Made by a program: the position numbers and the translations under genes | The notes under the pieces: model-generated | What the model was told of the DNA's origin: nothing | Databases searched by the model: none | What the model saw: only the letters and a program-made list of their open reading frames with translations | Shown: one piece after another, positions 3,591-48,661 of the stretch | Numbering within the stretch: the first letter of the stretch is position 1 | Layout: each line of letters begins with the position of its first letter | Assembly: GCA_022264855.1 (NCBI GenBank) | Contig: JABYQU010000002.1 | Coordinates: 434,001 to 498,000 of the forward strand | Length of the DNA stretch: 64,000 bases | Origin: Lenzites betulinus | Lineage: Eukaryota; Basidiomycota; Agaricomycetes; Polyporales; Polyporaceae | Reading direction: 5' to 3'

Positions 3591-5985
3591 GCACGAGATC
3601 GCGTCCCGGCGCGATGCAACTTGGTGAATGTGCTACTGTGAGCGTACGGAGTGTGCGCGCGCGTTCGCGGCGTGAACGGGGTGACTTGACTTTTCGCTCA
3701 CTTTGGTGCGAGCAGGGGACGACGGCCTGTGAGGGTGCAAATACAATTCTCCTGAATCGCGCTGGAAATGCGTCAGCGTGTGCGTTTCGTGTAGCGATAG
3801 ATACGTACCAAGTTGCAGAGCGAGGGGAGCAGGCACGAAGGCGGCCAGGGGCGAGTGATCCTGTGTGCACCCATGAGATGGCACCAGAGGCACGACAACA
3901 GGGACAGCTCGGATCGCGCTCAAATTTCACATACGCACGACGTGTACTCCCGTGGACGTATGTTCCGAGTTTCGGCGGGCGCAGTCGCGATGCCGGTCGG
4001 CAGTCAGCGATATTGTGTTTGTGACCTAGCATGTATGGGACTTTGAGAAGTAGACACCATCGGAGGAAGGTGGACAGCAGCGAGGAGAGAATCGTCGGAA
4101 GAGATCTCTTGGTGTGCTGTGACGACGACGCGAGGCGACTGCTGAGACGGAGCATGCGGCGGAGAGCAGGATGGGAGGTTGGGGCGAGGGTGTACTCAGA
4201 ACGAGGGCACGGGAACGAATTCCTCCCGGATCGGGCTGGAAACACGTGAGCATATGCGCAGTACATAGCGAAATGTACCCACCGAGCTGCAGATGAAGCG
4301 GTTCAAAAACGAGGGTGCGATGAGCGATCCTCTGTGCACACACATGAAATCGACCCAGAGGAGCCTGAAGGCGGAACTGCCCTGACCACGCTGGAAGTCA
4401 GCGAGCGCACTCGGTATATGCGCGCATAGACACGTCACACCAGTTTCCGCGAGGAGGCGTCGCGATACCAGGCCGCGGCGGACGATTATCTGTGTGTGCA
4501 CACAGGCCCAGTGCACAGGAGGAGCGAAACCTGGACCGTCCCGGATCGCGCGCGGAATCGCTGAGGCAGCTCCGTGCGCATACGGGAGTATTTCCGTGGA
4601 GTTTGAGCGCGAGGGGATGAGCGGGGAAGGCGGGGTGCGCGATTTCGTCTGGCATGCCCTTGAAAATGCGCAGGAAAGGCGCATTTTCGAATTGCTCAGA
4701 TAGAGCTGCGAATGCACGTGTGCGTTCCGTACAGTCAGTCGAGCCTGCATGCAGAACATTAGCTCGAGGGAAAGCGATCCCAGTGGGCGGGGGATGACTC
4801 TTTCCACATACCAACTGACATGTCATGAATCCGCGCAGAAACGGCGCATCTTCAATTCGCTCAAATCGAGCTGCAAATGCGCGTGTGCGTCCCGTAGAGT
4901 CGTTCGAGGCTGTGTTCGAAATATCAGCAGGAGAGAGAGCGATCCGAATGGACAGTGGGCGATTCTTTCCACGTGCCCACCGAAATACCATGAATCTGCG
5001 CAGAACGGCGTATTTTGGAAGTGCTCGCATCGAGCTGCAAATGCGTGCGCAAGTTCCGTACAGCCAGTCGAGCCTGCATGCAAAGCGTCAGCTCGGGGAG
5101 CGCGATCCGAATGGGCGGCGGGCGACTCTTGCCACATACCAACAGAAATGCCATGCATCCGCGCACAAACGGCGTCTTTTGAAAGCTCTCGGATCGGGCT
5201 GAAACTGCGTGTGCACGTTCCGTACAGCCAGTCGAGCCCGCATGCAAGATATCAGCCCGAGGAGAGACGATCGAGTGGCGGGCGGGGGATTATTTTCACG
5301 TACTGGCTGAAATGCAATGAAATCGCGCAGAAACGCGTGTTTTCAAACCAGTCGGATCGAGCTGCGAATGCGCATGCCAGCTCCGTATGGTCACCAGAGC
5401 CTGCGTTCAGAGTATTAGCGTGGGGGAGCGTGATTTGAGTGGAGCGCGAGCGAATCTATCCGCGCACCGAGTGGAATGGGGAGACACAAACTGCTCGCAT
5501 CGCGCTGTAGCTGCACACGGGCACTCCGTACGAGCACTGGAGTATACATTGGAAGTTTTAGAGCGACGCGACGGGAGGGGAGCGCAGCGCAAGCCATTCG
5601 GCGTACACACTCATGGAATGGGACTTGGTCTGCGACGACGAACATGGACTTTCAAAATGCTCGCATCGGGCTGATATTTCGCGTGAGGGCTCCGTACGCA
5701 CAGTACAGTGCAGGTCTACGAGCGCAGCGTGCGTGGTACAAACTGGACGACGCCTCGCCGTTTCTCTCCGCAGCCGCATGAAATGGCTTAAAAGACGTGA
5801 AACTTGGACTCGTCGTCTCGGGCTGGGATTGCGTGTGCGCACTCCGAGTGCACAGTACAGTGCACGTTCACAATCGCAGCGCACGCGCAGGCGAAACGAG
5901 TGCCGCGCGGCCACCTTTTTCTCGGTATATGAAATGGCACAAGGTGGTCGAGGACGAAGGCTGCTCGGATTAGGCTGAGGCTCGA
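3590..5985. repeat. Decayed tandem satellite, 143-166 bp unit
   Basis: An anchor of the form TCG-R-GCTG followed by (A)AATGCG recurs at about 3754, 3911, 4228, 4391, 4542, 4699, 4863, 5027, 5190, 5353, 5496, 5662, 5816 and 5966. It is followed 25-30 bases later by a second anchor, (T)TCCGTACAG or ACTCCGTA. Spacing is 163-164 bp in the best-kept part (4699-5353) and 143-166 bp elsewhere. Other shared words are CATGCA, GCGATCCGAATGG, CCACATACCAAC and CGCGCAGAAACGG. Weaker units can be traced left to about 2.9 kb. The unit length is close to one nucleosome repeat. No coding capacity is conserved between units. Confidence 0.75.
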
Positions 5986-46738: not shown

Positions 46739-46933
46739 GAGATATCCTGTGACGGAGCATGGATGAATTGTTGGATGCGCTCGAAACGCTTCGACGGTGC
46801 AATGTGTGTCCCATCAAAGCTGCCGTTTCACGCATATTGAACAGGACGAGAGAATGCACCAGTACATTATACACCTAATCTACACTAATACACCGAGTAT
46901 ACATACATCGATCGCGTGGGTATATGTCCTTAC

Positions 46934-47350
46934 CACGGCAAGCATAGGCATTTTGCAGGCCCCCTGACACGCCCATGGAATGACCTCCACAGCTTTGGTG
47001 GCATTAAACCTCCTTGACGATGTAATTAAGCTAGCCATTGATCATTCCAATATAATACCTTCAATTATGACCGTCCACGAGGAATATAAGCTTTGTTGTG
47101 CTTTGGAAGCACTCTGGGATGTGTGCGGAATCTGACATGTCGCGGGCGCGTCACTGTACAATGAATAATATAGAAATATAGTCTTTCGAGCACAAGGGAA
47201 GCGACCAGGAACGGCTCATTTCGATACACGAGGAAGTATCGGTGTCGCGTTGCGTGGAATGTCTTTGTCACGGAACATTGCAAGTCACAAGACATTTCAA
47301 AAAAATCGATGAATTCCAGTGGACGTTGAATTTCCTTGGTACTTCAAATG
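46934..47350 (+). repeat. Left arm of perfect inverted repeat
   Basis: Pairs base for base with 47382-47798 on the opposite strand. Symmetry axis at 47366. Confidence 0.92.
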
Positions 47351-47381
47351 TAATTCCTTTGTTCGATTGGAATCTTCTTGA

Positions 47382-47798
47382 CATTTGAAGTACCAAGGAA
47401 ATTCAACGTCCACTGGAATTCATCGATTTTTTTGAAATGTCTTGTGACTTGCAATGTTCCGTGACAAAGACATTCCACGCAACGCGACACCGATACTTCC
47501 TCGTGTATCGAAATGAGCCGTTCCTGGTCGCTTCCCTTGTGCTCGAAAGACTATATTTCTATATTATTCATTGTACAGTGACGCGCCCGCGACATGTCAG
47601 ATTCCGCACACATCCCAGAGTGCTTCCAAAGCACAACAAAGCTTATATTCCTCGTGGACGGTCATAATTGAAGGTATTATATTGGAATGATCAATGGCTA
47701 GCTTAATTACATCGTCAAGGAGGTTTAATGCCACCAAAGCTGTGGAGGTCATTCCATGGGCGTGTCAGGGGGCCTGCAAAATGCCTATGCTTGCCGTG
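47382..47798 (-). repeat. Right arm of perfect inverted repeat
   Basis: Reverse complement of 46934-47350. Its outer end overlaps the final codons of the Ala-rich gene on the minus strand. Confidence 0.92.
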
Positions 47799-48661
47799 TA
47801 CACCGCCGTAACTGGGGTGGTCTGGGTGGCGGCCGGGTAAGGCTTGACAGCGTTAGGGCCGGTTTCTAGAGGCGCAGTGGAGGGGGTCGTAGTGGTACCG
47901 GTGACGACGCTCTTGGCCTTCTCGATATGCGGTTGTGCGGCGGCGGCAGCCGACTGCACGTACGGTTTCGCAGTCGCAGCAGCCGAGTCGACGTAAGGCT
48001 TCGCGGTGGCTGCCGCGGATTCGACGTAAGGCTTCGCAGCCTCCTGCGCCGACGCGAGGTACTGCTGGCCGGTGGCGACCGCAGACCGGACAGTGGATGA
48101 TACACCGTTCGCGGCGTTGGTAGCAGTAGTCCCAGGTTGTGCTGCGGCACCGCCGACGTACGACTAAATGCACAACTGGGTTAGTATGGCATATCAGCAG
48201 TAACAATGCACGTCACATACCTGAGCCGTCGCGAGGGCACTGCTTGCGAGGTTCTTCGCCTGCTCGACGTAGCCGGTGGCAGTCGCCTTCGCGGCCTCGA
48301 CATCGGCTGCGCCTTCCGAAGCGGCGACATCAGTCTTGTGGCTGAGGCCCTCCTCGAGCTGGTTCACTGCCGAAGTGGCGTGGGGCTCGTGGATCTGGAT
48401 AAAAACAGGTTAGAAGATGACTTGGAAGGATCGGATGAGAAAACGAACCTGGGCGGTGATAGCAGCATCGGTGGCAGCATTGTGGAGCTTGTTCGCGTTC
48501 TGCTGCACCTCCTGAGAGATGTTGACAGTGGAAGCCTCAGTCTCGGCAACGGCAGCGACTGTAGCGTAGCGGGCGTCGCTCCTGAAAAGTCGTCAGCATG
48601 TATCGTGTGACATGTACGTGTTCTCTACTCACTGTCCAGTGGGGAGAGTGGCAGCGGACAT
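47765..48661 (-). CDS. Ala-rich repeat protein, LEA-like or lipid-surface amphipathic protein
   Basis: Four exons, the first 48661-48633 (MSAATLPTGQ), give about 244 residues. The protein is Ala/Thr-rich and predicted to be one long amphipathic helix. An 11-residue motif of the form AKPYV-(E/D/Q)-SAAAT repeats three times, with looser copies before and after (AEAAKATATGYVEQAKNLA). This resembles group-3 LEA proteins and perilipin- or apolipoprotein-like surface helices. The exact role is unknown. The last 11 residues (YTASIGILQAP) come from the foldback element. Without the insertion the frame would stop right after TTPVTAV. Upstream lie a TATA box and two CRE cores, suggesting strong, stress-responsive expression. 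Confidence 0.75.

Follow-up and report, generated by a model that had tools for sequence, protein, structure and literature searches.

An 865-bp palindrome with near-identical copies in the genome of Lenzites betulinus, probably a recently active non-autonomous DNA transposon

In the window (the whole stretch of 64,000 nucleotides analysed here) a palindrome of 865 bp (46934-47798) overlaps the end of an alanine-rich gene. It consists of two arms of 418 bp, which are 100% complementary to each other, and a spacer of 29 bp, so that inverted arms make up 836 of its 865 bp (Table 1). The pairing of the arms stops at the ends of the element, and the TAC triplets which flank it lie outside the palindrome. 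With a minimum length of 40 and a seed of 16, it is the sole inverted repeat listed within the window. A preliminary description of this DNA had reported a perfect inverted repeat with TAC on both sides. The exact arms and both triplets were found again here, but the sizes had to be corrected from arms of 417 bp and a loop of 31 bases. Its term "foldback element" fits the shape; the ends look EnSpm/CACTA-like.

Table 1. Position of the palindrome, its target duplication and the host gene in the window
Feature	Position	Strand	Basis
Left copy of the target duplication, TAC, 3 bp	46931..46933	.	Flank comparison
Left arm, 418 bp, starts with CACGGCAAGCATAGGC	46934..47351	+	Inverted-repeat analysis
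Unpaired spacer, 29 bp, sole asymmetric part of the palindrome	47352..47380	+	Same in 8/8 copies, either orientation
Right arm, exact reverse complement of the left arm	47381..47798	-	Inverted-repeat analysis
Right copy of the target duplication, TAC, 3 bp	47799..47801	.	Flank comparison
Host gene C2E23DRAFT_891924, 244 aa, Ala-rich, 4 exons as read here	47765..48661	-	Exact protein match

As single-stranded DNA the palindrome is predicted to fold with -568 kcal/mol (z -55 relative to 20 shuffled sequences). The longest stop-free stretch within an arm has 92 codons, and no Pfam match was obtained for three stretches tested at E values up to 1; coding capacity is therefore absent. Neither a tandem array within 46934-47798 (TRF score 50) nor a match in Rfam (gathering scores) or among plasmid records (E 1e-5) was found.

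The host gene takes its final 11 codons and its stop codon from the element, except for two bases which come from the target duplication. On the minus strand the reading is ..TTPVTAV, followed by YTASIGILQAP and a stop, and the public gene model (P0001) contains exactly this insertion-derived tail of 11 residues. When the element and one TAC are taken away, TAA follows GTG. Both this reconstruction and the extension by 11 codons had been put forward in the preliminary description, and both proved correct. Among 31 other proteins found as relatives, 19 (P0002-P0020) were aligned, and in 17 of these the final column coincides exactly with that of the V closing TTPVTAV, where the reconstructed stop lies. 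The two others, P0002 (with a different tail) and P0020, stop before this column. A natural ending in YTASIGILQAP among homologues had been named earlier as an observation that would speak against an insertion, and this tail is absent from all 19 aligned relatives. Since the TAA is restored and the relatives end at that column, the insertion hit the stop codon and made the protein longer by 11 residues. An insertion thus rewrote the end of a protein, and the rewritten end persists in the public gene model.

The preliminary description had also proposed a genome-wide search for further copies. We searched the genome (37.4 Mb in 108 contigs) with one arm at E values up to 0.001, and the resulting counts are lower bounds. 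The 16 arms detected, with no solo arm among them, form at least eight complete palindromes of 865 bp, one on each of eight contigs. Separate searches at E values up to 10, one with the outermost 120 bp and one with an inner part of 327 bp (spacer included), recovered the same eight copies, and outside of these no match to the arms or to a parent sequence appeared in the genome with any of the three queries. Six of the eight copies are base-identical, among them the one in the window (contig C21); the copy on C1 has one difference and that on C32 has twelve. None of the eight deviates by a single base in the spacer or at the inner breakpoints. Along the contigs, the spacer faces one direction in four copies and the opposite direction in the remaining four. 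The G+C content of the palindrome is 45%; flanks of 1 kb have 50-59% around seven copies and 42% around the C32 copy. Of eight flank frames tested around the copies, three gave a Pfam match to a gene above the cut-off.

Leaving the C32 copy aside, the seven others show a single difference across approximately 6,050 bases. Because of this low number their spread looks recent, and the "very recent event" suspected from the window alone agrees with the near-identity of seven out of eight copies. The C32 copy either is older or belongs to another sublineage.

Direct duplications flank all eight copies, and all are different (CAAC, ATG, ACT, TGT, TAC, AGA, CGA and TTG). Their length is 3 bp in seven cases and 4 bp (CAAC) in one, and no fixed target motif such as TWA is visible by eye in the eight targets. 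For two of the eight sites empty counterparts exist. The C69 copy sits inside a retroelement, called Gypsy-like from a reading of the flanking frames only, and the equivalent position is uninterrupted in all four other copies of this repeat that were found. Two of them, the most similar ones, on C99 and C42, have a single ACT with 147 and 146 of 150 bases matching on the left and 149 of 150 on the right in each; the equivalent on C17 is gap-free over 300 bases at 94%, and the one on C55 is more diverged (132/150 on the left, 98/150 on the right, ungapped count). For the C1 copy, which is located within a different repeat, C51 and C12 have the empty site with a single CGA (left 60/60, right 42/43). 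Weaker matches on C43, C12, C29, C25 and C76 also cross this junction uninterrupted (78-87%). For the six other sites no empty counterpart was found in the genome of this one strain; the searches returned the filled site only, plus a weak match to the right flank of the C88 copy. The Gypsy-like retroelement itself (L005, L060, L061, L062 and L063) has at least five copies, which are 87-100% alike over the 200 bases searched.

These observations bear on two explanations which do without a transposon. Foldback reads can create perfect palindromes, and a foldback chimera from sequencing or assembly, a possibility which the preliminary description had named as a refutation, could look like the structure in the window. 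However, the same 865 bp occur at eight sites, each of which has a target duplication of its own, and two of these sites have empty counterparts. Therefore, on the basis of the assembled sequence, an assembly artefact is excluded for practical purposes. The other explanation is a single inverted duplication, made by foldback priming at a break, a process which has been proposed as a source of inverted duplications (PMC10622511, in the part available). The founder palindrome may possibly have arisen in this way. For the copies, foldback priming is refuted by the eight loci: the ends are exact, target duplications are present at every site, and the flanks lie outside the palindrome, all of which makes a one-off duplication most improbable as an account of the element. 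The preference expressed earlier for transposition over random inverted duplication was thus well placed, with eight of eight sites duplicated and two of eight having empty counterparts. Target duplications, empty sites and exact ends together show the mobility of the palindrome. Judged by its sequence, the element is a recently active non-coding DNA transposon.

As to the transposon class, 5'-CAC..GTG-3' ends together with 3-bp duplications are taken as consistent with fungal EnSpm in the available part of PMC12730594, and such termini are present at all 16 ends of the palindrome family. By termini and target duplication only, the family probably belongs to EnSpm/CACTA. From this assignment, cut-and-paste movement is presumed, and the transposase would presumably be of the corresponding class and come from another element. 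The genome contains 42 domain matches to tnp2 (PF02992) and 132 to Plavaka (PF18759), counted exon by exon. For a possible helper, eleven tnp2 loci were read in stretches of 8-9.5 kb (L049-L058, L066), four of them also in short stretches (L043-L046). Of the Plavaka loci, ten were read over 3.7-4.0 kb each (L033-L042) and one pair over 8 kb each (L047, L048). Clear CAC..GTG terminal repeats were recognized in two of the eleven tnp2 loci. The element in L066 (C35:351734-359283) has 7,550 bp, ends with CACTGTGTGCC.., a duplication TGC and a frame of 536 aa over the tnp2 match. The one in L051 (C68:175280-182385) has 7,106 bp and ends with CACTGTGTGCCCGG.., and its flanks read CACGT/CACGT, which is not a clean 3-bp duplication. 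The terminal repeats of these two show that tnp2 elements with CAC..GTG ends exist in this genome. Their ends have only CAC in common with the palindrome end CACGGCAAGC. A search of the genome with the CACTGTGTGCC end pattern returned the four ends of L066 and L051 and two weak single matches (one match in the reversed control), and no further full pair.

Among the tnp2 and Plavaka loci read, none combines CACGGCAAGC ends with a 3-bp duplication. A search for an autonomous element with the 16-bp end and two mismatches, which could miss partners sharing fewer bases or absent from the assembly, gave the 16 ends of the family and 29 others, compared with 31 matches in the reversed control. With the 23-bp end and three mismatches, only the eight copies rose above background (reversed control 0). 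Several candidates were rejected. In L057 two pairs begin with CACGGC on one side; they have only 2-bp matching flanks and no AAGC continuation. Eight loose CACGG look-alikes in the fetched loci outside the family were judged, without a control, to be due to chance. The Plavaka pair L047/L048 was discarded as a helper, its common part ending in ..TTTGTGACA. These two loci (C21:553500-561500 and C16:653200-661200) hold Plavaka-type copies which are 98.9% alike over approximately 6.2 kb, and shifted self-matches suggest an internal array of units of about 157 bp. L047 is located about 56 kb beyond the right end of the window. One 16-mer recurs four times on one strand of another contig (G000 C50:149571, 160693, 171834 and 183483) with a spacing of 11.1-11.6 kb, perhaps reflecting a large tandem repeat.

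Academ and Harbinger are superfamilies with duplications of 3-4 bp, and one of these or a Plavaka-like group may possibly serve the element instead, an alternative which we consider doubtful but worth keeping in mind. It would accommodate the one duplication of 4 bp, the greater number of Plavaka than of tnp2 domain matches and the absence of the terminal sequence of the palindrome from every tnp2 element read. On the other hand, inspection by eye showed no constant motif like TWA in the eight targets, the CAC..GTG ends and 3-bp duplications agree with EnSpm, and the Plavaka ends described in the available part of PMC12730594 (TGT..ACA or CATCA..TGATG) differ from those of the palindrome. EnSpm/CACTA thus is the assignment that we favour.

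The differences between the copies are informative about the arms. In the C32 copy, ten of the twelve differences from the others fall into five mirror pairs (43/823, 91/775, 228/638, 339/527 and 376/490), each of which preserves the pairing of the arms, and two (824 and 849) are one-armed. When twelve differences were placed at random, four or more mirror pairs occurred in none of 200,000 trials. The single difference of the C1 copy is one-armed. Because the C32 differences are mostly mirror-paired and pairing is kept, arm correction is the best reading: each arm seems to be corrected by comparison with the other, as judged from one divergent copy. This agrees with the "ongoing gene conversion" which had been offered as an alternative reason for identical arms. 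The three one-armed changes (two in C32, one in C1) are then best read as not yet corrected. With one divergent copy and no outgroup, the changes are unpolarised, and the five pairs may have arisen on either branch. Symmetric differences would also be expected, without any repair, if the palindrome had been born twice from two versions of one parent sequence. However, the spacer and inner breakpoints shared by all copies and the failure to find a parent sequence with the outer 120 bp and inner 327 bp in the genome stand against this. Two independent births are quite unlikely, because every copy has the same spacer.

As a whole, we consider it very probable that the palindrome is a recent non-autonomous DNA transposon of 865 bp, probably served in trans by a tnp2-type transposase and presumably subject to arm templating. 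A sequence of 418 bp and its mirror copy around the 29-bp spacer constitute the non-coding, non-autonomous element. The CACGG..CCGTG ends would be recognised by a transposase acting in trans, which most likely is of the EnSpm/CACTA (tnp2) type, and a staggered cut at insertion would lead to the duplication of three (once four) target bases. The copy in the window landed in the TAA stop of the Ala-rich gene, adding 11 codons. The palindromic structure allows either arm to serve as a template for its partner; we infer that this may occur by copying primed from a hairpin (gap repair) or, after extrusion of a hairpin, by mismatch repair. The arms would thereby stay alike while the family drifts. 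A more far-reaching idea, which we regard as rather speculative, is that the element renews itself by self-templating, one arm being rebuilt from the other via a hairpin during movement or repair. If true, self-templating erases or doubles one-armed mutations, and the element behaves as a half-unit of 418 bases carrying its own backup copy.

Could the element also act as a silencing locus? A transcript reading through it is predicted to form a duplex of 418 bp (RNA fold -845 kcal/mol), which might be cut by Dicer. In the window the frame of the host gene enters the element, and the genome has domain matches to Argonaute (Piwi) at four loci and to Dicer_dimer at three, a few of which contain internal stops. 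A precedent would be Mu killer of maize, an inverted duplication with transposon ends which is proposed to act by hairpin RNA and for which, as for the palindrome, such RNA is possible by read-through from a flanking gene (PMC3440606, in the part available). Unlike Mu killer, which holds transposase sequence and has a known target according to the same part of that source, the palindrome is itself mobile, and neither feature was found for it. Since no other match to the arms was detected in the genome, the family itself is the only target that can be seen. Moreover, two of the matches at the Piwi locus on C14 are interrupted by stops. A silencing role therefore appears unlikely.

With fungal non-autonomous EnSpm/CACTA elements the family has in common the CAC..GTG ends, the mostly 3-bp duplications and the presence of tnp2 elements with such ends in the same genome, but it differs in being nearly all inverted repeat and in having only CAC in common with the termini of the tnp2 elements in L066 and L051. 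MITEs occur in high copy number, with ends usually far shorter than 418 bp. The palindrome resembles them in being short and non-coding, with a lower G+C content than most flanks and several near-identical copies; in contrast, at least eight copies only were found, and its perfect arms of 418 bp are far longer. Classical FB elements have arms built of short tandem repeats and target duplications of another kind, unlike the palindrome, whose arms are free of listed tandem arrays. Very long inverted arms and a short middle are shared with foldback-type elements (FB; Tetris, PMC9659126, in the part available). The palindromes of sex chromosomes, in which conversion between arms keeps these alike, are comparable as well, but they are large and located on X chromosomes (PMC8981503, as far as this text was available), whereas here the arms are the 418 bp of a mobile element.

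In the openly licensed literature, as far as its text was available, neither a perfect-palindrome transposon with arm correction from a polypore nor the present family was found among the matches listed, and the exact 21-bp end of the element had no match in viral_contigs and genome_contigs. Palindromic non-autonomous DNA transposons are a known kind, to which this family adds a new one that is unusual in the perfection of its arms. Fragility and instability are ascribed to long palindromic DNA (PMC4057610, PMC7999016, in the parts available); even so, eight copies of 865 bp persist in this fungal genome and have spread. The family is a natural system for studying how transposons of palindromic shape maintain the likeness of their arms.

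The window contains a further repeat, a tandem array at 4667-5434 with a period of about 164 bp and four to five copies, which have 71-79% identity to the reference copy; the single frame read there contains stops.
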